Shown here: positions 5,138-55,996 of the stretch, in pieces
Layout: each line of letters opens with the position of its first letter
Position numbering within the stretch: position 1 is the stretch's first letter
Source of the DNA: Geobacter sp. AOG1
GTDB taxonomy: Bacteria > Desulfobacterota > Desulfuromonadia > Geobacterales > Geobacteraceae
Direction: 5' to 3'
NCBI RefSeq assembly: GCF_019972315.1
Contig: NZ_BLIZ01000001.1
Span: 3,179,411 to 3,243,410 of the forward strand
Length of the DNA: 64,000 bases
Notes under the pieces: generated by a model
What the model saw: the letters and a program-made list of their open reading frames with translations, nothing else
What the model was told of the DNA's origin: nothing
The model's database searches: none
Position numbers and translations under genes: made by a program

Positions 5138-6592
5138 CTACCGCTTGGTCTTCTTGGCGGCAGCAGTGACAATCCTGCTGACCGGTCCGTAAAGACTCTT
5201 CACGGTGGCAGTGCTGCCAGCTTTGAGGACGGTGCTCGTGACGACAATCTTCGTGTCACTCCAGTACACGATCGCGCACTGGCTGCCATCGGGTGCGAAG
5301 ACGCCGAGGCCGGTGCTCACATCGGTGGGCGGAGCCTTACCGAAGCCACTGCCGGTAATGGTGACGGTGCTGCCGCTGACCGTAGCGGCTGTAATGGCGA
5401 GAGGTGGAATAACGGCAATTCTCGTCAGGTTGCTCTGCTTGTCGCCCTTGACAACGAGCAGGTCGTAGGTACCGACCGGGAGAGCCGGGATGTTGGCCTG
5501 GATCTCGCTTACGGTGATCGAGGTCGGCTGGACGGTGACCGTGGTGGTGCCGTTCGTCAGGGTGACGGACGAGGTGAAGTCAATCCCGTTGCTCTGGTTG
5601 GTGAAGCTGCCACCCGTGATAGTGAGGGCGTTTTGCTTGTTGGCGATGAGCGCCCTGGTGCTCACGTCGCTAACGAACGGAACAATGGCGCCGGCCGGAG
5701 ACGGATCGGTCGCATACTTCTTGAACGTACCGTGGCAGCCCCAGCAGTCAAAGTCGTTACCAACGTGGCCATAGCCGAGCGGCATGGCGCCCGGAACGAC
5801 GTTTGGACCGGTTACAACCTGCCCCTGAGGATTCTGGATGTTGTGGAGCGACTTGACGCCGTGGCAACGCTCGCAGGTCCGGATGTCGAGGAAGGTGGGA
5901 TCACCGGGCTGTCCGCCGTGGCACCAGGTGCAGTCGCCGACAGCAATCGGTTGGCCCGTGACGGAGGTCGGAGCGCCAAGGCCGGTGCCATGGTGCGTAT
6001 CGGCGTTGCTCTTGATGTCCTTCGGCCCGACGTCAGGAGCAGCAAGGGCAGCCTGATGACATGCCATACAACCGCCGTAGTTCTGCGGGACGGCGGGGTT
6101 GTTGCCGCGCCACTTGGTCTCGGGTGTCACCGAAGACTTGGCATAGGTCGGGATGTAATGGTTGTCAAGCGGGTTGTCGATGAAGCTGCCGTGGCAGAAC
6201 TTGCAGTCCTGCTGCTGGGCAGCAGTTGTAATATGGTGCGGGGTCTTTGAGTGGCAATTGAGACAATTCCTGAAGTCGGCGAAGGTAAACCCGCCGGACC
6301 CGTCGGGAATCAGCTGATGGCAGCCGGTGACTGGGGAGGCAGTTGGGTCGCCATAACAGCTCAGCTGCCGCGGTGGCAGCGTCAGGTTGTGGTGGCGCGG
6401 AACGAGGACCGCATCACTGACGTGGCACGGGGCACCCTGCAGACAGTCCGCTCGGGTCAAGGCTGAGAACGTGGTGTCATAGATCCCTCCGTTCTGGTTG
6501 ACCGGAGGGGGCGGAACCTTCGCCCAGTTCACGACAGCCAGACCGAGCACGATTGTGGCGGTCAGCGTCATGCTTAAAAGAATTTTTTTCAT
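5138..6592 (-). CDS. Multiheme c-type cytochrome with C-terminal IPT/TIG domains
   Basis: The protein has 484 residues with a signal peptide (1-24) and AAAGGAG before the ATG. Six canonical CXXCH motifs begin at Cys110, 130, 175, 221, 240 and 283. Two further Cys pairs end in Cys-His but have wide spacing: CX5CH at 50-57 and CX11CH at 79-92. Two IPT/TIG-like beta domains occupy about residues 305-400 and 400-475 (ITITGGSF-like and VTITGSGFG motifs), followed by a basic tail KKTKR. It is probably a periplasmic or surface electron carrier. The IPT domains suggest extracellular placement, as in Geobacter surface cytochromes. Whether the two widely spaced motifs bind heme cannot be judged from sequence. 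Confidence 0.88.
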   Translation of the reverse strand: MKKILLSMTLTATIVLGLAVVNWAKVPPPPVNQNGGIYDTTFSALTRADCLQGAPCHVSDAVLVPRHHNLTLPPRQLSCYGDPTASPVTGCHQLIPDGSGGFTFADFRNCLNCHSKTPHHITTAAQQQDCKFCHGSFIDNPLDNHYIPTYAKSSVTPETKWRGNNPAVPQNYGGCMACHQAALAAPDVGPKDIKSNADTHHGTGLGAPTSVTGQPIAVGDCTWCHGGQPGDPTFLDIRTCERCHGVKSLHNIQNPQGQVVTGPNVVPGAMPLGYGHVGNDFDCWGCHGTFKKYATDPSPAGAIVPFVSDVSTRALIANKQNALTITGGSFTNQSNGIDFTSSVTLTNGTTTVTVQPTSITVSEIQANIPALPVGTYDLLVVKGDKQSNLTRIAVIPPLAITAATVSGSTVTITGSGFGKAPPTDVSTGLGVFAPDGSQCAIVYWSDTKIVVTSTVLKAGSTATVKSLYGPVSRIVTAAAKKTKR

Positions 6593-7211: not shown

Positions 7212-9377
7212 TCAGGGCAATGGGGAGGAATTCGCTTGCTTGAGGGTGAAGTAAAAGGTTGCGCCCCTACCAACCTCCGCTTCGGCCCATATGTTACCGC
7301 CGTGGCGCTCGATGATGCGCTGGACGGTTGCCAGTCCGATCCCCGTGCCGGGGAAATCCTTCGAAGCATGCAACCGCTTGAATGGCGTGAAAAGCCCGTC
7401 GGCATCTTTCATGTCAAAGCCGGCACCGTTGTCGCGAACGAAGTAGACGGTCCCACCTTCACGCTCGGTGACACCGAATTCAATCCTGGCTGTAGGGGTG
7501 TTCCTGGAATATTTCCAGGCATTTCCCAACAGGTTTTCCAGGACGACTTTCATCAGTCGAGGGTCACAGAAGGCCGTCATGTCGGTGGCAATGACGAATT
7601 CAACCTTCCGTTCAGGCCCGGTCACATTTAGGTCGGCGACAATAACCGCTGCCAGACCGCTCAGATCGACTTTCTCCATATGCATCTCGCTTCTGGTAAC
7701 CCCGGACAGACCGAGGATCGCCTCGATCAGCTCCTCCATATGCTCGCTCCCGTCGCAGATGGCATGGAGGAGCATCCTGCCGTTTTCGTCGAAGGCCTCG
7801 CCGTACATCTCGACAAGGGCCTGCCCTGCCACATAGATACGAGTCAGGGGAGAGCGCAAGTCGTGGGAAAGGGTATAGCTAAAAGCCTCAAGCTCCCGGT
7901 TCGACGCAAGTAAGTCCAAAGTCTGTTGCTGCAAGACATCGGCCTGGGCCTGGAGGGCCTGTTCCGCTTTCACGTGCTGTGTCATATCCCTGACCACTTC
8001 GATTCCGGCGATGATCTTTCCTCCCGAGTCCCGCAGCGGCGATGCAGTGACCTCTATGGGAGTGCCCGAAGGCAGTACCTTAATCAGCTTATGAATGCGC
8101 CCGTCCTTATAGCACCGAACAACAGGACACCCCTCGCAGATATCGTCATTGCACGAGTAGGCCTGGTAACAGTAGCTGCCGATAAAACTGCCGCCGACGA
8201 TATCCTGGTGGACCTGGTTCTGGTACAGCACCTTGAAATCGAGGCTCTGAATGCTGACGCCTTCACCCATGGCGGCAATAATGGCATCCGACTTGTTCTT
8301 CTCCTCTTCTGCACGGTTCTTCGCCTCCAGGAGCTCCGTATTGACCGCGAGCAGGGCGGTGGCCCGGTCCGCAAGGTCGTGGCTGAGCGCCTCGTTCTCC
8401 TGCTCGAACCGCTTCTGCTCGGTAATATCCCGGGCGACGGCGATAGTCCCCCCTCTCTCGATACTGGTGAGTGATATTTCCAGAGGAAAAGTGCTGCCAT
8501 TCTTCCGCTTGCCGACCAGTTCGCCGCGCCACCTCCTGTCACGCAGAAACATCGGCCTGTTTTCCCGCTCGTAGCGTGCCAGTTCTTCGGGGGAGAAGAG
8601 AATCCGCCACGACGTGCTCAGGAGCTCGCCGGCCGACTCAAATCCGAAGAGCCTCCCAAAAGACTGGTTCACGTAGATGAAGCCCCTGGTTTCGTCAAAA
8701 ATGGCGATTCCGTCCATAGCGGCTTCCATGGCAGCCTGCTGCAAACGGAGTTTCTCCTCGGCCTCCCGCCGTTCGGTAATGTCCCGGATTGACTCTATAC
8801 CGGCAATTATGGTGCCGCCGGCATCCCGCAAGGGGGAGGAAATAATCTCCACATGACGCATCCCCCGCTCCGTAACGGCGCTCGCCTCACGACGATGGCA
8901 AAACCCATCGCTGAAGGACTGGACCAGATGACATCCTTCGCACACGTCGTCCTTATGCTGGTAGGCCGTGTAGCAATACTCGCCCACATGCTCTCCCATA
9001 AGACTCTTGTGGGCCTGATTCTGATAGAGAACCTTCAAGTTGAGGTCCTGCACACTGATTGCATCACTCATGGCCGAAAGGATTGCCTCCGATCGAGCCT
9101 TTTCCTCCTGGTACTTGTCCAGGGCCACATGCAGCGCATCCTTCAGCCGGGCCTGCAGGCTGGCCACCCGCCAGACGTACCACACGACAACTATCAGCAG
9201 CCCTGACACCATGAGACGCATAATCACCTCATGGGCTACGACTGCTGAAGCAAAGGCTCCCTTCTTGAAGATGAGGGTGTCAAATACCCCGTCGACAAGC
9301 CAAAAAGCGGCAAGGAGCACGACGCCAAACAGGACGAATTTTTTCCAACTAAAATTGTTGTCCTGCTCTCTGTTCAT
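7212..9377 (-). CDS. Membrane-bound PAS sensor histidine kinase
   Basis: The protein has 721 residues. Two transmembrane segments lie near residues 13-33 and 47-67, with a very short loop between them. Three PAS domains follow. PAS1 (about 90-205) and PAS3 (about 370-480) share a cysteine signature: CY-x-AY, then DD(V/I)CEGC. PAS2 (about 215-325) lacks it. The HisKA H-box is FSYTLSHDLRSPL with His505. The HATPase has an N-box near residue 615 (NLLGNAWKYS) and G-boxes DNGAGF and GTGIGL. No receiver domain and no adjacent response regulator are present, so it is an orphan kinase. The input is unknown. The PAS cysteines hint at a metal or redox sensor (inference). Confidence 0.92.
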   Translation of the reverse strand: MNREQDNNFSWKKFVLFGVVLLAAFWLVDGVFDTLIFKKGAFASAVVAHEVIMRLMVSGLLIVVVWYVWRVASLQARLKDALHVALDKYQEEKARSEAILSAMSDAISVQDLNLKVLYQNQAHKSLMGEHVGEYCYTAYQHKDDVCEGCHLVQSFSDGFCHRREASAVTERGMRHVEIISSPLRDAGGTIIAGIESIRDITERREAEEKLRLQQAAMEAAMDGIAIFDETRGFIYVNQSFGRLFGFESAGELLSTSWRILFSPEELARYERENRPMFLRDRRWRGELVGKRKNGSTFPLEISLTSIERGGTIAVARDITEQKRFEQENEALSHDLADRATALLAVNTELLEAKNRAEEEKNKSDAIIAAMGEGVSIQSLDFKVLYQNQVHQDIVGGSFIGSYCYQAYSCNDDICEGCPVVRCYKDGRIHKLIKVLPSGTPIEVTASPLRDSGGKIIAGIEVVRDMTQHVKAEQALQAQADVLQQQTLDLLASNRELEAFSYTLSHDLRSPLTRIYVAGQALVEMYGEAFDENGRMLLHAICDGSEHMEELIEAILGLSGVTRSEMHMEKVDLSGLAAVIVADLNVTGPERKVEFVIATDMTAFCDPRLMKVVLENLLGNAWKYSRNTPTARIEFGVTEREGGTVYFVRDNGAGFDMKDADGLFTPFKRLHASKDFPGTGIGLATVQRIIERHGGNIWAEAEVGRGATFYFTLKQANSSPLP

Positions 9378-46736: not shown

Positions 46737-47534
46737 TCACTCCTGAACGATACCGGCCTTGAGGGAGGTCACAAAAGCCGTTACGCTGTCCTCAAGGGCC
46801 TTGCCACGGTGGGTTTCGAACAGCTTGACGATGGCACTTCCGACCACGACACCGTCGGCAACACTGGCAACCCTCCCCGCCTGCTCCGGGTCGGCAATCC
46901 CGAAACCGACTGCCAGCGGCAGCCGAACCTTCGCCTTGATTCCCGTCACGGCATCAAATACGGAACTGTCCACCGACTGCCGCGCCCCGGTCACGCCGGT
47001 CACCGAAACGTAATAGATGAATCCGCTGCCAAGCCGGGCAACCTTGTCGAGACGGGCCTTATCGGAGGTGGGGGTAAGGAGGAAGATCACATTTACGCCA
47101 TGCCGGTCAGCCATGGCCTTGAAGTCGCCCGCTTCCTCGGGGGGGAGGTCCACCAGCAGCACCCCGTCCACGCCGGCCGCCGCGGCATCGGCGAGAAACT
47201 TCTCCGGTCCGTAGACAAATATCGGGTTGTAGTATCCCATGAGGAGAAGCGGCACCTGAGAGTGGTGTCGTACCGATTTTACCATGGCTAAAATCTTTGC
47301 CACGGTGGTGCCGGCCGCAAGCGCCCGTTCTGAGGCGAGCTGGATGGTGGGGCCATCGGCCATCGGGTCGGAAAAAGGGACCCCGAGTTCGATGATATCC
47401 GCCCCCGCCCGTTCCATCAGGGGAATCAGCTTTTCGGTCGTTGCCAGGTCGGGATCGCCGGCCGTAATAAAGGTGATGAGTGCCTTTTCCCCCCGGCGGG
47501 CCAATGTCGCAAACTTCTCCGCTATTCTGCTCAC
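46737..47534 (-). CDS. trpA: Tryptophan synthase alpha chain
   Basis: The protein has 265 residues. The catalytic residues Glu49 and Asp60 are in [24 protein letters not shown] and [10 protein letters not shown] complete the barrel signature. It cleaves indole-3-glycerol phosphate to give indole for TrpB. The start is GTG at 47534, overlapping the TGA of the chemoreceptor as GTGA. It is 12 kb from trpB on the same strand, so the alpha and beta subunits are not neighbours. Confidence 0.96.
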
Positions 47535-49711
47535 GCCGACTCCCTGACCTTGAAGGACGCCATTTCCTGCCGCAGTATCTCGGTCTGGCGAAACAGGTTT
47601 TCCACCGCCTCGTTCATGATTCGGGTCGCCTCAGCGTTTATGTTGGTGGACTGCTGGATATCCTCCACGGCAACCACCACCTGTTCGCTCCCCCGGCGCT
47701 GTTCGTCACAGGCAGTCTTGATCTGGCGGATCATGTCGGTGATGTCCTCGGTGGATTTGGCAATGAAATTGCCGACCTTGCTCTGCTCACGGGTCGAGAA
47801 ACGGACCTGGGTGGTGAGATCCTTCATCCGCTCCACGGCACCCATGATCATCCCGCTCCCCATACCCTGTTCCTTGGTCGCCTTGGCGATCTGCCCCACC
47901 ATCTCAGAGACCTGTTCCATGGCATCGCGAATAATGTGACTCCCTTTCGCCTGTTCTACCGTGGCGCGGGCTATTTCAGCCATCTGGGCGCTGGACCTGA
48001 TTACCCCTTCGAGTATCTTGTTCAGCGCTTCACCCGACCTCTGGGAAAGATCTTCACCTTCGGCAATGCTCGTTTCCGCCTGGTTTATCGCCTCGACCGC
48101 CCGCCGCGTCTCGTCCTGCACCGCCTTGATAAGTGCGGCAATCTCACGGGTAGAACTGCTGGTACGCTCGGAGAGTTCCTTGATTTCATCGGCAACCACG
48201 GCAAACCCTTTCCCGTGCTCGCCGGCCTGGGCCGCTATGATTGCGGCATTCAGGGCAAGCAGGTTGGTCTGCTCCGCCACTTCGTCGATTACCGAAAGGA
48301 TGGCGCCTATGTCTTCTGTCCGCCCCGACAGGGTAGTGACCACATCGAAGGTGATTCTTGAAGAGGTACGGATCGCGTCGATACCCGCAATAGTCGCCTC
48401 CACCGTCTTCTTTCCGTTCTCGGCATCCTGCCGGACCTCATCGGAAATGGCAGCGGTTTCCATGGCACTCCGTTCCACCTGTTTGATGGAACTGTCCATC
48501 TGCATGACCGACGATGCCGTAGTTGTGGACGCCTCCATGAGGCTCACCACACCATTCCCCACCTCTTTGATTGAGATGGAAATCTCGCTGATGGAAGCGC
48601 TGACCTCTTCCACTGACTGGGTGAGATTCTCCATGTTGAGAGCCACTTCCTCGATGCTGGCCGCCATCTCCAGGATGGAAGAAGAGCTCTCCGCCGCCGA
48701 CTGGGAAAGGGCGTCAACCCCTTCGGCAACCCCCTTGACGGAGGTATTGATCTGAGTCATGGCCGACGAGGTATGGCTGACCCCCTCGACCTGAAGCTGA
48801 GCGGCATTCACTACCTGCTTCGAGGCATGGGACAGATTGTCGGAAATACCGGCCAGGTCGGCGGCCGACGTATCGACCTTGCCGACCATTTCGGACAATT
48901 TCTGCACCATGACATTGTAATCGTCAGCCAGCTTGCCGAGTTCGTCGCTGGAATCGATTGCAAGCCGCGAGGTAAGATCTCCTTGCGATCCATGCCGGAG
49001 AGCATCCGCCACCATGTCAAGACGGCGGACGATGTATCTCGATGTGGCCACCCCGAAGCCGGCCGCCACAATAATGGCGAGGACAATTACCACTGCAAAG
49101 GTCACTCCTGCCGAACGCTGGATTGCGCCGACCTCCTCATTGGCCTTGGTCATCCGACTTCCTACCGCCACGAGGAGCTCGTCCACCGCCTGCTTCGCAT
49201 CGTCGCTCACAACGCTGAGTTGATCCCCCACGAGTTGCGCCAGCTGTCCGTCACCCTTCCCCCCCTTCAGGGATTGCTCTTTCGCGGACAGAAGCCCCTC
49301 GGCAACCTTGTCGAAAGCATCCCATTTCTGAAGGGCGGCCTTGGCGCGCGTCTCGATATCACTGCCGGGGGAAGCCGGTGATATCCCCATTTTCGCGTTT
49401 CCCTTGAGGATAATGGTGCACTGGCTTCTGAACTGGTCGCGCAGCATCCGGTAGTCTTCCGCATGGTCCTCGAATTTGCTCGTATCGACCTGGACCATCG
49501 CCGCCTGCAGCAGGCTGACCTGACATCCCTTCTGGGTAGCCCCCATGAGAAGCACCAGTTTTTGCTGTCCCGCCAGGTTCTTGAGCAGGTCCTGGATCCG
49601 GTCCCCCACCCTACTCATGCTGATCGCCCCGAACGCGCCGGTTATGGCAACGATCATGGCAAGGATCATGAAAGAACCAATCAGCCGCTGGCCAAGCTTT
49701 AGACCTTTCAT
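47531..49711 (-). CDS. Methyl-accepting chemotaxis protein
   Basis: The protein has 726 residues with GAGGGTGAACG before the ATG. TM1 (about 12-34) and TM2 (about 205-228) flank a periplasmic helical sensor domain; a HAMP segment follows. The signalling hairpin tip is [24 protein letters not shown], with the expected A/S helices on each side. It presumably signals through CheA/CheW, encoded elsewhere. Its stop codon overlaps the trpA GTG, so the two are translated in tandem. The ligand is unknown. The redox locus lies upstream on the same strand. Confidence 0.95.
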
Positions 49712-49871: not shown

Positions 49872-50630
49872 TTACCGGGAAAAGTAGCCAAACTCCTCGT
49901 TGTAAAAGTGGAGCACCTTCTCCACCTTCGCCGACGGCTTCCCCTTGGTTATCAGAATGATAGGTGCCGTTACAATAGGTATATCCACTCTCCCAACAGT
50001 TGCTATTGCCATTCCGCGAGGATCGATGCCGATGGAGCCCGGATTGGCCTTCACTAGTTCCCGGATGCTCTGGTAATCGGTCGCCTTGATAGCCCTGGCA
50101 GTCACCTGCTCACCATCCAGGATCTCCTTGATGAAGAGGGCATTCTGGCCGGGAGTTTCAGTTCCCCAGACCACGATGATCGGAAGGTCTGCCCCGCCGA
50201 ACTCCTTCCAGTTGGTCACCTTGCCGGTAAATATCTTTTTCAGCTGGGGCTTGGACAGTTTCTTGATCCGGTTGGACTTGTGTACGAAGGCCACCAGTTC
50301 GTTTTTCCCCAGTTCCTGTTGCTGGAGAGAGGCAGGATCGATGGCAACCCCTTCCTTCGCTGCTTCCGCCATGATGGTTGTCAGAGGGACCGTCGTCGTC
50401 ACCGCGTCCAGCTCCCCCCTCTCAAGGGCAATGAGTCCCTTCAGCGGCAAACTCTGAATCAGGGTCAGTCTGTCGCCGCTGCTCTTCTCGAACTGTTCTT
50501 TCATGGGAGCAAAAACCGTAGAAAGTGCTGCCCCGCCACCCCCTATCCGGATTTCCTGAGCACCTGCCACACCGGCCGTCAGCATACAGACAATACCGGC
50601 CGCTGCAATTTTCAGTGGGCTTATATACAT
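49872..50630 (-). CDS. PstS-like periplasmic substrate-binding protein, copy 1
   Basis: The protein has 252 residues with AAAGGACGAGAAC before the ATG and a signal peptide (1-24, ending GAQE). Family PBP_like domain: IRIGGGGAALSTVFAPMKEQF, then GLIALERGELDAVTTTVP, and KKIFTGKVTNWKEFGG. The PstS-type phosphate ligands are not clearly conserved, so the ligand may not be phosphate. It is 30 bases after the monoheme cytochrome gene. A second copy (54488-55246) has the same 252-residue length and a very similar sequence. Confidence 0.8.
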   Translation of the reverse strand: MYISPLKIAAAGIVCMLTAGVAGAQEIRIGGGGAALSTVFAPMKEQFEKSSGDRLTLIQSLPLKGLIALERGELDAVTTTVPLTTIMAEAAKEGVAIDPASLQQQELGKNELVAFVHKSNRIKKLSKPQLKKIFTGKVTNWKEFGGADLPIIVVWGTETPGQNALFIKEILDGEQVTARAIKATDYQSIRELVKANPGSIGIDPRGMAIATVGRVDIPIVTAPIILITKGKPSAKVEKVLHFYNEEFGYFSR

Positions 50631-50660
50631 AGTTCTCGTCCTTTTCTCTTGGAATAAATG

Positions 50661-51020
50661 TTATTTGTTCGCCTCGTCCAGGAGCCAGTTCATCAGCTCC
50701 ACCGTCGCCTTGACCTCTTGTTTGTTCATGTTGGAATCGGGTTTGCGCAGCATCTTGACACCATACGCCTTGGTTGCATTGCGGTCGAAGGGTTGACCGG
50801 AAATGGGGGCAACGCCGGTCTGGAGGGCGACGATGGTCCGTTCCAGGTTGTGACACTTGATACATTTGACCTTCATAATGTCATAGCTCGCCTTCATGGC
50901 GGGAGGGAAACCGGACGGGTCGAGACGCATGTTGTCCCCCTTGCCGACCACCTTGAGGCCGGCATGAGCGGCGCTGCCGATGAGGAGCAGTGCGAAAAGG
51001 GGCAGAATTACTTTTTTCAT
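50661..51020 (-). CDS. Monoheme c-type cytochrome, copy 1
   Basis: The protein has 119 residues from the ATG at 51020, with AAAGGAG upstream; the longer frame has no character. A signal peptide (1-20) is followed by one CXXCH (CIKCH, near residue 52), and PISGQPFDRNATKAYGVKML as a conserved block. No distal Met ligand pattern of class I cytochromes is obvious. It lies between the porin-cytochrome gene and the binding-protein gene in one operon. Confidence 0.88.
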   Translation of the reverse strand: MKKVILPLFALLLIGSAAHAGLKVVGKGDNMRLDPSGFPPAMKASYDIMKVKCIKCHNLERTIVALQTGVAPISGQPFDRNATKAYGVKMLRKPDSNMNKQEVKATVELMNWLLDEANK

Positions 51021-51060
51021 ACAAAATCTCCTTTGACTCCAGTTGTTGGAAGAAACGGCG

Positions 51061-52419
51061 TCAGAAACTGAACGCCAGGGCAAGCTGGGTGATCCGGTCG
51101 GTTGCGCTCTGCGCGCCGTGGTAACTGATGTTGTCGTTCTTGTACTCCAGTACCAGCTTGGTGTTCTGAAGGGGGGCATAGGCAATTGCCGGGATACACC
51201 TGTTGTGAATCCCGGTACCGTCATCCTGGTACTCGTAGCGGAACACCGCGATAACGTTCGAGCCGATCAGATACTCCGCCTCGGCAGCCAGCACCAGCGA
51301 CTTGACGTCATTGGGAACGGCGGCGAAGAGGGGATTGCTGTCCCTACCGTACACGCCGGAAAACCGGGTCCGCAGCCGTTTGTACGACAGGTCCGCATCC
51401 AGCCCGGCACGATAGTAGTAGTTGGCATTGTTGCTTAAGGTGGGGATTTCGTAACGGCCATAGTAACCGTAGGTGCCGACCGTCAGTGCCAGATAGTCCC
51501 AGACGCTGTCGCTCTCCAGGTCAATCTCGGGTTCGTCACCGAGGAAGTCCGACCCGCCGATCTTGAAGGAGAGATGGCCATACCCTTCCTTCTCATTCTG
51601 GTCGTTGCGGTCAACCACCCCGGCCGCAACGTAAACGCGCTTGCCGACGATGCTGTTCACCTCCACGCCATCGCCGGCAGAATCGAGGGAGAATTGGGAG
51701 GAGCCAACCTTGTAAACCTGCGGTGCAAAAGAAGCGATGGTGGTTTTGTTGGTCGACTTCCAGAGGGAAAGCTTCGGCTTGAGCCGGCCGACCCGGACGT
51801 TGATCGGTGTATCGAGGGCATGGCGCCAGATGAAGAAGAGTTCGTTGAGGTCGGGATTATTGTTGCCGGGGACATTCCCGACGAGAGGGTCGTAGTGTCC
51901 TTCGGAATAAAGGTTGTACGTTGTGTAGAAGGCCGCCTTGTCACGGAACGTGCCGCCGGCTTGGAGCACCAGGGCGCGGGTGGAAAGGTCGAACTTGTCC
52001 TTGGCATGGTCATTGTGGGCAAGGTTCAGTGAGGCGGTAAGGGAGACCGGCAGCATCTCGGGAATGGCCGCCAGCCAGAGAGCGGGATCCTTGCCGGGCG
52101 GGGTCCTCACGTCGGGAGCATCCACCCCGGCAACCGTCTCCTTTTCTGCGGCCGCCTCTTGACCGCTACCTACTGAATCTCCGGCACCCTTGGCCTGAGC
52201 CGGCGTTTTTGCCTTTGCCGCCTTATTCGAATAGACATAACTGTTTTTCAGGAAAGCCTCGCCGTATTCATTCAGCTCCGGATAGATGGTATGGCAGGTG
52301 CTGCATTCCGTCTTGTACTGCCGGGTGAAGGCAGGGATCGCCCGGGCCGTGCCGGTAAAGAGCAGGGGAAGCCCCAGGGCGACCGCCAACATAAGAATTA
52401 CCATGTTACGGATCTGCAT
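51061..52419 (-). CDS. Outer-membrane beta-barrel protein with N-terminal heme-binding motif
   Basis: The protein has 452 residues from the ATG at 52419, which has GGAGGAAAAC upstream. A signal peptide (about 1-24) precedes IPAFTRQYKTECSTCHTIYP, one CXXCH. An Ala/Lys/Gly-rich linker (about 65-105) follows, then a long beta-barrel (about 120-452) with alternating aromatic strands and a terminal LALAFSF. This N-terminal heme plus barrel arrangement is known from porin-like cytochromes of metal reducers. It is the first gene of the operon and is divergent from the decaheme gene. Confidence 0.85.
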   Translation of the reverse strand: MQIRNMVILMLAVALGLPLLFTGTARAIPAFTRQYKTECSTCHTIYPELNEYGEAFLKNSYVYSNKAAKAKTPAQAKGAGDSVGSGQEAAAEKETVAGVDAPDVRTPPGKDPALWLAAIPEMLPVSLTASLNLAHNDHAKDKFDLSTRALVLQAGGTFRDKAAFYTTYNLYSEGHYDPLVGNVPGNNNPDLNELFFIWRHALDTPINVRVGRLKPKLSLWKSTNKTTIASFAPQVYKVGSSQFSLDSAGDGVEVNSIVGKRVYVAAGVVDRNDQNEKEGYGHLSFKIGGSDFLGDEPEIDLESDSVWDYLALTVGTYGYYGRYEIPTLSNNANYYYRAGLDADLSYKRLRTRFSGVYGRDSNPLFAAVPNDVKSLVLAAEAEYLIGSNVIAVFRYEYQDDGTGIHNRCIPAIAYAPLQNTKLVLEYKNDNISYHGAQSATDRITQLALAFSF

Positions 52420-52696
52420 TGTTTTCCTCCTGACAGACTTAGATAGTAACAGTCCATTAAACGGCAAAAAAATCGAGTACCCGACGGGATCAACCGATCC
52501 CCTCTGCGGACAAACCATATCAATAACCAAATGAATATATAATATGGTCATTTCACGAAATAGCAGTACGTGATACTAATACAATATCTGGCCGTGCCAA
52601 GTCAACTCACAAAAGCTTTAATTAATTAACTTAGCTGCATTTTTTGCTACATTTTTTACACTGGAAGTGATATAGAAAGAATTGGAGGAGAGCACA
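52420..52696. promoter_or_regulatory. Divergent control region between the porin-cytochrome and decaheme genes
   Basis: An AT-rich 277-base interval separates the two divergent redox genes. It must hold both promoters, but no -10/-35 pair I checked is close to consensus, so positive regulation is possible. I could not define an operator. Confidence 0.4.
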
Positions 52697-54403
52697 ATGA
52701 TAAAATGGCTCCTGGTGCGGTTCTGTTTGATTATCCTGCCTATCGCGGCCCTGACTGGCTGCGGCAGCAATAGTACGGGAAATGGCGGAACGGCGTCCGC
52801 CCTTGAAGCATCACAACCGTGCATCGGCTGTCACAGCACCGCGGTTTCCCCGGTCACGGGCGCAGTGATTGTTGATGAATGGCGGAGATCCACCCACAAT
52901 ACCAAAAACGGCGCCGGCTGCCGCGACTGCCACGAACCGGCGGCAGGGCATCCTAACAACTGTGCAACCTGTCATGGCGGCGGCACGCCTCCCCCGGGCA
53001 CGGACGAGGTCGTACGCAACCCGGACAACCAGCAGAAATGCTATAAGTGCCACGCCCCAAGCGCAACCGTCCATCCCCTGGCGGCCCCCCATTTTGCCAG
53101 GCTGCCGGCCACCATCCTCGTCGCCCCCCAGACCCTGTGGGACAACATGACCACCGCCAGCTACGTCTCTTCCCAGAACGCCAAACGGTGCCGCAGCTGC
53201 CACAACCCGCACGACAACAGCGTGACGCCGCACCACAAAGACTGGGCCGAATCGGCCCATGGCAATACGAAATCCCAAGCCTTCATGCATTATGACTTCA
53301 AGGTCCGCGGTACCAGCGGTGGAGCGACACCGAGCAACTCGGTAGCCACCGACTGCGTGCGGTGCCATACTTCCACCGGCTACATCCGCTATGTAACGTC
53401 GGGCTTCACCAACATCAGTGCCTGGGGGCGTGTGCCGAACGGCACGCCCCTTGATATGACCAAGGAAGTTATCGGGTGCAGGACCTGCCACGACGACGGC
53501 CAGGGGAATGCGTACAGCTACAGGATACGTAGCGTCGGCAGTATCACTGGCTATTACAACTACTCCTCGGCCAGCACGAAAAAACTGTATATATCCTTCC
53601 CCTATTCCGACCAGGGGGCGTCCAACATCTGCATGGGGTGCCATACCGCCCGGGAGATCGGCGACACAGTCAAGGCTGCGGCCGCCAACAACCTCAACTT
53701 CGCCAACGCCGGCTTCGTCAACTCCCACTACCTGAGCGCCGGAGCAACCGTTTTCGGCATCAGCGGCTACACCTTCACCGGCCGCTCGTATGACAACGCG
53801 TTCTTTCAGCACGACCAGATCGGCCGCGGCAACTTCCTGGGAACCGGCACAAAAGGGCCCTGCGTGACCTGCCACATGTCGAGTCCCAACAAACACCACT
53901 TCCTGCCGGTTATCCGCCAGGACGAGGAAGACAAATCCAGCCCCATCACCACCGTGACATCGACCGCCTGCAACTACTGCCACAACCAGAAGCCATGGAC
54001 TGGTACCTCGTTGCAGGAACGCAAGGCAGCCTACCAGGCCGCACTCGAAGCACTGAAGGGCCAACTCGCCAAGCGCGGATTCTACTTCCAGCCGAAGAAT
54101 CCCTACTTCTTCACCACGGCAACCGGCTCGACCAAGATTTCAAACTGGGTATCTGCCGGGGACACATCGGCGAACGGCCGGGCCACGGGTGAACAGAACA
54201 TGGGGGCCGCCTTCAACTACAATCTCCTGGAACACGACCCCGGCGCTTTCGCCCACAACAGCAATTACGTCAAACGCCTTATCTACGACTCCATCGACTG
54301 GCTGGACGACAACCAGTTCAACAATTCGGTCGGCACGACCCTGAATGCCCTCCCCGACGACACCCCCTACAAGGCAGACGCCATCAGGTACCTGCTGCAA
54401 TAA
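52697..54403 (+). CDS. Decaheme c-type cytochrome lipoprotein
   Basis: The protein has 568 residues from the ATG at 52697, with GGAGGAG upstream. The signal peptide ends in the lipobox LTGC with Cys22, so it is probably lipid-anchored to the outer membrane. Ten CXXCH motifs start at residues 42, 75, 89, 115, 165, 220, 261, 312, 389 and 425. The 140 C-terminal residues have none. It should carry electrons along a heme wire. The divergent barrel-cytochrome gene suggests they work together at the outer membrane. The exact family is not recognised. Confidence 0.9.
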   Translation: MIKWLLVRFCLIILPIAALTGCGSNSTGNGGTASALEASQPCIGCHSTAVSPVTGAVIVDEWRRSTHNTKNGAGCRDCHEPAAGHPNNCATCHGGGTPPPGTDEVVRNPDNQQKCYKCHAPSATVHPLAAPHFARLPATILVAPQTLWDNMTTASYVSSQNAKRCRSCHNPHDNSVTPHHKDWAESAHGNTKSQAFMHYDFKVRGTSGGATPSNSVATDCVRCHTSTGYIRYVTSGFTNISAWGRVPNGTPLDMTKEVIGCRTCHDDGQGNAYSYRIRSVGSITGYYNYSSASTKKLYISFPYSDQGASNICMGCHTAREIGDTVKAAAANNLNFANAGFVNSHYLSAGATVFGISGYTFTGRSYDNAFFQHDQIGRGNFLGTGTKGPCVTCHMSSPNKHHFLPVIRQDEEDKSSPITTVTSTACNYCHNQKPWTGTSLQERKAAYQAALEALKGQLAKRGFYFQPKNPYFFTTATGSTKISNWVSAGDTSANGRATGEQNMGAAFNYNLLEHDPGAFAHNSNYVKRLIYDSIDWLDDNQFNNSVGTTLNALPDDTPYKADAIRYLLQ

Positions 54404-54430
54404 CAGCTGTCAGGCACTCCAGACAGAAAA

Positions 54431-54458
54431 AAAGCCCGTCCCTTTCGGGACGGGCTTT
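54431..54458. terminator. Shared terminator between decaheme and copy-2 binding-protein genes
   Basis: Arms of 12 bases (54431-54442 and 54447-54458; AAAGCCCGTCCC) with a TTTC loop lie between convergent genes. The minus strand gives a run of seven T residues, the plus strand a shorter one, so it works best for the minus-strand operon. Confidence 0.85.
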
Positions 54459-54487
54459 CACATTCTGGTGCCGCAAGATGCCAACTC

Positions 54488-55246
54488 CTACTTCGTCAAG
54501 TATCCGAATTCGTCATTGTAATAGGCAAGCAACTTCTCCACCTTTGCCGACGGCTTCCCCTTGGTCACCACAATGATGGGGCTTGTGACTACAGGAATGT
54601 CCACGACGTTGACGGTCGCCATGGTCATCCCCTCAGGATCGATACCGATTGCACCCGGGTTGGCCGTTATCATCTCCCTGATGCTCAAATAATCGGTTGC
54701 CTTGACGGCACTTGCGGTCACTGCTTCCTTGTCGAGTATCTCCTTGCTGAAAAGGGCATTTTGACCGGGGGTAGCTGTCCCCCAGACAACCACGATTGCT
54801 TGATCTTTTCCGCCAAGTTCTTTCCAGTTGGTGATTTTGCCGCCAAATATCTTTTTCAGTTGCCCCTTGGAAAGCCTTTTGACAGTGTTGGATTTGTGGA
54901 CAAAGACCACCACGCGGTTTTTGGCAACTTCTACCTGTTGAAGCGTTGCAGGATCGATCTTTACGCCCTCCTTGGCAGCCCCGGCCAGCATGGATTCCAG
55001 AGGAACTGCGGCAGTGGCTATATCGATCTCTCCCTTTTCAAGTGCGATAAGACCTTTGACCGGCGTGCTCTGCAGGATGGTCAGGGCATCGCCGCTCGAT
55101 TTCTCGTATTCCGTCTTCATCGGGGCAAACACAGTGGCAATCGCCGCCCCACCACCGCCAATCCGGACTTCCTGGGCCATAGCCAGTCCACTCATCAGGA
55201 AACAGGCAATCCCCAGACAAAAAACTCTCGACAATAATTTACGCAT
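54488..55246 (-). CDS. PstS-like periplasmic substrate-binding protein, copy 2
   Basis: The protein has 252 residues from the ATG at 55246 (AAGGA upstream). A TTG two codons earlier is possible. Signal peptide 1-24. It is closely similar to copy 1: VRIGGGGAAIATVFAPMK, then GLIALEKGEIDIATAAVP and KKIFGGKITNWKELGG, with GKPSAKVEKLLAYYNDEFGY at the end. It lies directly after the monoheme copy 2. Confidence 0.8.
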   Translation of the reverse strand: MRKLLSRVFCLGIACFLMSGLAMAQEVRIGGGGAAIATVFAPMKTEYEKSSGDALTILQSTPVKGLIALEKGEIDIATAAVPLESMLAGAAKEGVKIDPATLQQVEVAKNRVVVFVHKSNTVKRLSKGQLKKIFGGKITNWKELGGKDQAIVVVWGTATPGQNALFSKEILDKEAVTASAVKATDYLSIREMITANPGAIGIDPEGMTMATVNVVDIPVVTSPIIVVTKGKPSAKVEKLLAYYNDEFGYLTK

Positions 55247-55270
55247 ACGCAATTCCTTTCGTGAAATTTG

Positions 55271-55630
55271 CTATCTGGCAGCCTCGTTCAAGAGCCAGGC
55301 GATCAGGTCCATCGTAGGTTTTAGTTCTTCCTTGCTGATAGTTCCCCCGGATTTGCGCATCATCTTGACGCCGAAAGCTTTGGCGGCATTACGGTCGAAC
55401 ACTTGACCAGAGATCGGGGCCACACCGTTCTGTATTGCCATGATGATCCGTTCGGCAGAATGACATTTACTACATTTGTTCCTTAAGATGTCATGCCCTT
55501 GCTTCATCGAAGCCGGGACACCGGCGGCGTCAAGACGCATGCTGTCACCACTGCCAATCACCTTGATGCTGGCATGGCCGACACCCCCGAGAAACAGCAC
55601 GAGAGCCAACTGAAGCAGAAGACTTTTCAT
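55271..55630 (-). CDS. Monoheme c-type cytochrome, copy 2
   Basis: The protein has 119 residues from the ATG at 55630, with GGAGG upstream. A signal peptide is followed by CSKCH and GVAPISGQVFDRNAAKAFGV, matching copy 1 closely in length and sequence. The short gap to the binding-protein gene mirrors copy 1. Confidence 0.88.
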   Translation of the reverse strand: MKSLLLQLALVLFLGGVGHASIKVIGSGDSMRLDAAGVPASMKQGHDILRNKCSKCHSAERIIMAIQNGVAPISGQVFDRNAAKAFGVKMMRKSGGTISKEELKPTMDLIAWLLNEAAR

Positions 55631-55996
55631 GGGAACCTCCAGGCGACAGCTTGGGCACATCCGAAATGAACGCCAGAAAGCATCTACAGCAAGCAAATTA
55701 CATGCCATTAATATAAAATAAATAATTATCTTAGACCAACCAAAGTAAGCCCATGTCTCCGGCAGTACCGCTGACAAATCATAGCAACCCGTGTATTCAC
55801 TTTACACGGTTATTTCACTTAACCACAATTATCCCGCTAGCTATATAACGATATTTCAGAAAAATAAAAACCCCGGAATATCCGAGGCTTTTTGTCATCT
55901 CCCTTAAAAATTATGCGAAAAAAATATCCCTAGACTCCCGATGTAATGTACACGGGTGCAGGGACTCTGACCACACTCACGAATTCACGATATACT
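55631..55996. other. AT-rich intergenic region upstream of the copy-2 pair
   Basis: About 365 bases with no ORF supported by a ribosome site. It includes the hairpin at 55866-55892. The operon promoter for the copy-2 pair should lie here, but no consensus pair was found. Confidence 0.45.
55866..55892. terminator. Hairpin with flanking A/T tracts between uup and copy-2 pair
   Basis: A broken stem pairs 55866-55877 with 55881-55892 (CCCCGGA with TCCGAGG, two mismatches), flanked by A and T tracts. On the minus strand the T-rich tail TTTTTATTTTT fits a terminator for uup. Confidence 0.6.

Follow-up and report, generated by a model that had tools for sequence, protein, structure and literature searches.

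A predicted Cyc2-like conduit, its small periplasmic cytochrome and an adjoining chemoreceptor gene in Geobacter sp. AOG1 and its relatives

Genes and heme proteins at the locus

A 64,000-nucleotide stretch of the genome of Geobacter sp. AOG1 (contig NZ_BLIZ01000001.1, positions 3,179,411 to 3,243,410; hereafter the window, in whose coordinates the features are given) contains genes for a Cyc2-like fused cytochrome-porin (BARREL), a small secreted monoheme c-type cytochrome (MONO), a decaheme lipoprotein (OMC), a periplasmic binding protein (PBP) and a methyl-accepting chemotaxis protein (MCP). The finding to keep from the analysis of this locus is that a Cyc2-like conduit, a multiheme lipoprotein and MONO occur together and, in one large group of relatives, are tied to a chemoreceptor. 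On the minus strand the order is BARREL (452 residues, 51061..52419), 40 bp, MONO1 (119 residues, 50661..51020), 30 bp, PBP1 (252 residues, 49872..50630), 160 bp, and MCP (726 residues, 47531..49711), whose stop shares 4 bp (47531-47534) with the start of trpA. OMC (52697..54403) diverges from BARREL on the plus strand, and beyond it a second minus-strand pair, MONO2 (119 residues, 55271..55630) and PBP2 (252 residues, 54488..55246), stands alone, flanked by two terminator-like sites. The original prediction made from this DNA had described these two pairs, of equal lengths and in the same order and strand, with a divergent decaheme lipoprotein and a heme-motif barrel between them, and this description is correct; it had left out the chemoreceptor gene (49711-47531), which lies 160 bp beyond the first copy.

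As set out in the part of the Cyc2 literature at hand (PMC8406198), Cyc2 has a monoheme domain fused to a porin of 16 strands, its CXXCH being preceded by AXPXFAR[Q/K][T/Y] and followed by PXL. BARREL has the N-terminal sequence AIPAFTRQYKTECSTCHTIYPEL and a single CXXCH, followed by 16 predicted strands. Motifs were counted in the 54 barrels with the heme domain in hand (three pieces lacking CXXCH were excluded, and a 345-residue piece, L067, was kept). The pattern A.P.F[ATS]R.....C..CH is present in 53 of them, and the whole pattern A.P.F.R.....C..CH...P.L in 50, that of the window included; in nearly all, T or S replaces A at the sixth motif position. An AlphaFold model of the barrel, made from 51 of the 54 sequences (L039, L041 and L067 were left out), has 16 strands and a mean pLDDT (predicted local distance difference test score) of 75.5, and at 452 residues the protein appears long enough for the C-terminal 16-strand porin of Cyc2 (at least 365 residues). 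When this model is compared with the PDB by Foldseek, the 50 best rows are porins and related outer-membrane channels, OprP and OprO included, apart from two design or model entries derived from OmpF or OmpC. With BARREL as the query, tblastn against 72,556 plasmid records gives three matches, all confined to residues 21-65; of the two that were inspected, one gene lies between HiPIP and c-type cytochrome genes and the other ahead of three cytochrome genes, and both carry the canonical Cyc2 motif. Among the same records the barrel part of BARREL has no BLAST match to Cyc2-type genes.

Together, sequence and model indicate that BARREL is Cyc2-like, strict membership of Cyc2 being left aside. 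The likeness lies in the single N-terminal CXXCH, the matching spacing of the motif and the porin-like barrel of 16 strands; the difference is that barrels of the window's type have T or S in place of A, usually accompany a multiheme lipoprotein and MONO, and occur in Geobacter relatives. The earlier proposal is supported in so far as it saw here a conduit for electrons in the outer membrane, with a barrel that unusually bears heme.

Class I c-type cytochromes have a CXXCH heme motif, followed by a C-terminal methionine ligand, within a helical fold. MONO, with CIKCH in MONO1 and CSKCH in MONO2, appears from its sequence and its model to be a cytochrome of this class. Residues C53, C56, H57 and M90 are invariant in 36 MONO sequences, and Met90 is likely to be the second heme ligand. 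The MONO1 model (pLDDT 89.3) has helices at residues 40-52, 60-68, 80-92 and 100-117, and in its Foldseek search the best three rows, two of them cytochrome cz chains and the other from a sulfite dehydrogenase, reach an E no better than 0.04, weak by score. MONO1 has no Pfam match, and MONO2 has sub-threshold Pfam matches only. A relationship to PccH (GSU3274) was considered and rejected: no PDB chain matched MONO1 (E up to 1), and the only matches of MONO2 were to cytochromes c1 and c, none better than E 0.2. Some distant MONO homologs (L013, L014, L016, L018 and L022) have CX4CH and CX6CH spacings instead of CXXCH.

OMC carries 10 CXXCH motifs, a match to PF22113 (MtrC/MtrF domain II/IV, 1.2e-14) and a lipobox, LTGC, that was judged by eye; a PDB search with OMC gave no match at 0.01. 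The Pfam matches of MCP to MCPsignal (1.8e-48) and HAMP (5.7e-11) are over their cut-offs and mark it as a chemoreceptor, and its periplasmic domain matches the four-helix bundle 4HB_MCP_1 at 0.003, below the cut-off of that family. As a c-type heme chemoreceptor the window's MCP was not recognised, having no CXXCH in its frame and no PF21563 match (E up to 0.01).

Between the ends of OMC and PBP2 lies a strong terminator-like hairpin (54430..54459, minus strand) with a 13-pair stem and a T tail; 12 terminator-like sites were found in the scanned stretch, versus 6.3 expected. Upstream of MONO2 there is a sigma-54-like -24/-12 site, TGGCATGTAATTTGCT (55692..55707, minus strand), called by a pattern match to what we take to be the -24/-12 consensus. 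A stricter pattern matches once in the window, versus 0.17 expected, and at least once in 16 of 100 shuffles; with a looser pattern the count is that of chance (2 matches versus 1.84 expected). No sigma-54-like site was found upstream of any of the 54 barrels, the window's BARREL included. A shared sigma-54 regulon was therefore rejected, as the MONO2 site has no counterpart upstream of these barrels and of eight other first genes, using a slightly wider pattern. Elsewhere in the window, a hexaheme protein with a TIG domain (5138-6592, minus strand) is encoded near a PAS histidine kinase with one CXXCH in its frame (7212-9377, minus strand).

Conservation of the gene set and of the chemoreceptor link

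Scanning 84,980 species genomes with an alignment of MONO yielded 69 named loci, and the denominators that follow are the loci where the contig permits the test. BARREL is directly 5' of MONO in 53 of 64, and OMC lies no more than 5.5 kb upstream of MONO in 44 of 55; evident fragments aside, heme motifs number 7 to 13 per OMC frame, with 9 or 10 in most. An MCP adjoins MONO or BARREL at 28 of 60 loci (L038 included, where the MCP frame overlaps the end of MONO), and PBP is directly 3' of MONO at 4 of 65 (L026 included). Three arrangements are seen: OMC divergent from BARREL-MONO-MCP, as in loci of Geobacter, Geomonas, Geotalea and Citrifermentans; elsewhere, genes for a DUF4388 protein and a membrane protein ahead of OMC, BARREL and MONO; and a third with OMC on either strand. 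The DUF4388-domain protein and the membrane protein, which is unmatched in Pfam, precede OMC-BARREL-MONO in many clusters lacking MCP (L058, L061, L062, L064-L066 and others). Neither G. sulfurreducens nor G. metallireducens is named for any of the 69 loci, in a scan that used one short pattern and may pass over near relatives. In an evenly drawn sample of 395 genomes of the phylum, MONO is found in 14 and BARREL in 17, with both in 11. No paper recognised as describing this gene set was among those listed from the open-licence full-text literature.

The link to the chemoreceptor is closest in the window's own family, for which 48 genomes were searched. MONO is present in 36 of these (E up to 1e-6) and the MCP periplasmic domain in 37 (E up to 1e-15). 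In all 36 MONO-bearing genomes an MCP with the conserved periplasmic domain is directly 3' of MONO on the same strand, within 120 bp in 28 of them; in six (G000, G401, G063, G402, G397 and G440) PBP lies between the two. The MCP domain is absent from 11 of the 12 family genomes that lack MONO, the exception being G398, at 34% identity. (It should be noted that the Fisher p of 5e-10 for this co-occurrence treats genomes as independent and is overstated by their shared ancestry.) The window genome of 3.68 Mb has 12 MCPsignal matches, and chance MCP neighbours should therefore be rare. The 4-bp overlap of MCP and trpA is seen again at L133, L134 and L145, of the same genus, and the order MCP-trpA-accD is kept more widely.

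Within the phylum sample the MCP domain occurs in 7 of the 395 genomes, two of which (G120 and G148) have weak matches and no MONO match. Outside the window's family, matches with E below 1e-39 are found in G343, G267 and G287, and in 3 of 3 the gene lies beside MONO or BARREL. In G267 and G287, which are of one genus in another family, the MCP-domain gene is divergent from BARREL-MONO (L060 appears to be the same place as that in G287). In G343, the genome of L136 and a member of a third family, and at L051, MONO-MCP is kept, and a small triheme cytochrome occupies the place of the barrel; G343 has no BARREL match at all. Such a small triheme cytochrome stands at or beside the barrel's place upstream of MONO-MCP at L136 (7853-8248, minus strand), L048 and L051, Pfam having been run on L136 only. 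In G397 the locus is split into MONO-PBP-MCP and OMC-BARREL-MONO, with one MONO each; divergent to the MONO-PBP-MCP part of this genome is a PF21563-domain chemoreceptor gene with one CXXCH (L130, 5565-7217, minus strand). At L072 (convergent, 0.7 kb off), L093 and L094, MONO is adjoined by MCPs whose sensor domains have no detectable similarity.

Tentatively, and at slightly less than an even chance, we favour a reading in which these genes form a Cyc2-like conduit whose periplasmic cytochrome MONO also informs the adjacent MCP, with PBP as an occasional second input. The main rival, a possibility to be taken seriously at somewhat under an even chance, holds that OMC, BARREL and MONO are a plain electron conduit serving respiration or Fe(II) oxidation, and that MCP and PBP are inherited bystanders. 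Several observations weigh against the reading that we favour, and some of them speak directly for this rival. Roughly half of the loci keep BARREL and MONO together with no MCP next to them (at 32 of the 60 that permit the test, above all those of the DUF4388 arrangement, none lies beside MONO or BARREL). The 36 of 36 reflects largely one inherited locus, MONO-MCP-trpA-accD, in family genomes that are not independent; with the order of MCP, trpA and accD widely kept in relatives and tight in the genus, synteny could explain much of that count. No chemoreceptor is mentioned in the part of the Cyc2 literature at hand (PMC8406198). The receptor itself bears no heme motif; 3 of the 14 MONO-bearing genomes of the phylum sample are without a BARREL match (G153, G202 and G343), and 6 of its 17 BARREL matches are in genomes without MONO, all of them weaker (E 8e-27 or worse). 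As to the conduit, the strict published Cyc2 motif occurs in only 1 of the 54 barrels, and the heme domain of BARREL is poorly modelled (pLDDT below 50, residues 24-52), so that a path of hemes across the membrane is only presumed. Against the rival, MCP is still found next to MONO or BARREL where its orientation differs and in further families, and MONO remains with MCP where BARREL is gone.

The binding protein and its second copy

The original prediction had taken MONO and PBP as the basic unit and had proposed that PBP binds an anion or metal, coupling this binding directly to electron flow through MONO. The neighbourhood search does not bear out such a unit: the regular partners of MONO are BARREL and a multiheme lipoprotein, together with the chemoreceptor in the window's relatives. 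Conservation of the pair holds in part, in that it recurs in 7 of the 36 MONO-bearing family genomes and in G202 outside the family, but most MONO genes have no PBP alongside, as the 4 of 65 loci given above attest. The PBPs linked to MONO do share one clade of 14 (support 86/95), which also takes in five genes that lack a heme frame within 1.5 kb. Many PBP genes, moreover, are accompanied by an MCP and have no heme frame nearby. A chemoreceptor is directly 3' of the PBP-family gene at 16 of 29 loci and absent from this position at 13; of these 16 receptors, 4 are of the window's type, and the other 12 belong to a different type, for which no heme frame is listed within 1.5 kb (the full receptors of PBP-family loci were checked in three). 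At L129 and L107, two or three tandem PBP genes lie directly ahead of a chemoreceptor gene. Because the PBP family repeatedly adjoins chemoreceptors where no heme frame lies within 1.5 kb, PBP would seem to suit signalling better than electron flow, and a direct coupling of ligand binding to electron flow is improbable.

Both copies match PBP_like_2 (PF12849, 1.7e-17 for PBP1 and 1.2e-19 for PBP2). In both, GT.TPGQ is found where an aligned PstS (4q8r) has R...SGT, presumably the phosphate-binding loop of PstS; lacking this motif, PBP1 and PBP2 give sequences in which phosphate binding is not supported. That PBP is an ordinary phosphate-scavenging PstS placed here by chance is very improbable, since the matches to PBP_like_2 over its cut-off and to TIGR02136 (PstS) are set against TIGR02136 scores of only 58 bits for PBP1 and 83 for the other copy, below the cut-off of 206.6, the changed phosphate loop, and the lack of any pst permease gene recognised by eye among the neighbouring frames.

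The two copies had been called closely similar. Their similarity is beyond chance (E 2e-130 for PBP1 and PBP2, and 1e-47 for MONO1 and MONO2, each in a single comparison), but "closely" is too strong for identities of only 68% and 56%, respectively. Decay of one copy, which would have spoken against the earlier proposal, is not seen: both reading frames of each pair are open, and the ratios of nonsynonymous to synonymous divergence (dN/dS) of 0.15 for PBP1-PBP2 (synonymous divergence, dS, 1.7) and 0.25 for MONO1-MONO2 (dS 1.3) are consistent with purifying selection on both copies. In the PBP tree (38 sequences), the sister group of PBP2 consists of the PBP1 genes from all four genomes sampled in the genus (support 100/97), and a recent tandem duplication is rejected for PBP, trees in which the window's copies are forced together having a p-AU of 5.65e-6. 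The MONO tree (L069, L071, L077 and L079 left out) has too few columns to judge a recent duplication. Among the four genus genomes, three of which are drafts, the second MONO is present only in that of the window. It would follow from these two results that the second copy either predates the genus sample and was lost elsewhere, or derives from an unsampled relative; in the reading that we favour it may be an old, separately placed spare or variant. Elsewhere the window genome encodes two more PBP homologs (E up to 0.01) and no third MONO (E up to 0.1). A third PBP paralog (C1:834136-834831, 40%) has no heme-motif frame listed within about 6 kb.

Extracellular electron exchange and sensing

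The favoured reading, of a conduit that also informs a chemoreceptor, starts from gene content and conserved linkage, from the barrel and its Cyc2-type motif, from the fold predicted for the cytochrome and from the loss of the phosphate motif. The 16-strand barrel with its fused monoheme domain, together with the decaheme lipoprotein OMC, presumably at the cell surface, would make up an outer-membrane conduit. Electrons would pass, in one direction or the other, between an extracellular partner, OMC, the barrel heme and then periplasmic MONO. The redox state of MONO may be read by MCP, for example through binding of reduced or oxidised MONO to the MCP periplasmic domain, and motility or surface behaviour would then track extracellular electron flow or an ion with redox activity, Fe(II) for example, as a candidate stimulus. 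In the few lineages, that of the window included, in which PBP is encoded between MONO and MCP, contact of PBP with the receptor may add a ligand-based input. A version in which the conduit serves sensing, so that a dedicated MONO would receive electrons from Fe(II) or a mineral and act as a redox ligand of the chemoreceptor, sometimes beside an input from the binding protein, is possible, if rather doubtful.

Parts of this scheme have counterparts in described systems. The Geobacter conduits OmcB/OmbB/OmaB, ExtABCD, ExtEFG and ExtHIJKL, as described in the excerpts at hand, combine a barrel with a multiheme outer-membrane lipoprotein (PMC6148476; PMC4245776), and both are also encoded at the window locus. 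In those conduits, however, each periplasmic partner carries several hemes (8 or 12), and these excerpts mention no heme motif for the barrels, whereas in the window the barrel and the periplasmic partner have one heme motif each. Periplasmic redox input to an MCP is described for the c-type heme chemoreceptors GSU0582 and GSU0935 of Geobacter and for DcrA (PMC8396549, in the portion at hand); there the heme is on the receptor itself, whereas at the window locus it would sit on a separate protein. In Shewanella congregation, MtrBC/OmcA and the MCP SO_2240 are both required for gathering at minerals, for which an energy-taxis model is given (PMC5789149), and, unlike the genes in the window, these outer-membrane cytochromes and the MCP are not described as one linked locus in the sections of that paper at hand. 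A PstS-fold protein that presents its ligand to a chemoreceptor, as PBP might, is found in the CtpL-PstS system of Pseudomonas aeruginosa, in which phosphate chemotaxis is mediated by PstS (PMC4926252, excerpt); PstS there is a true component of a phosphate transporter.

The finding assigns to Geobacter relatives a Cyc2-like protein whose partner is a multiheme lipoprotein. How metal-reducers find insoluble acceptors is described as unclear, and the sensing of reduced metal ions has been proposed for Geobacter (PMC5789149, in the sections at hand). By bringing together a Cyc2-like conduit, a periplasmic cytochrome and a chemoreceptor, the conserved locus offers specific genes for addressing this question. 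If the version in which the conduit serves sensing is true, relatives of Geobacter would steer directly by extracellular electron exchange.

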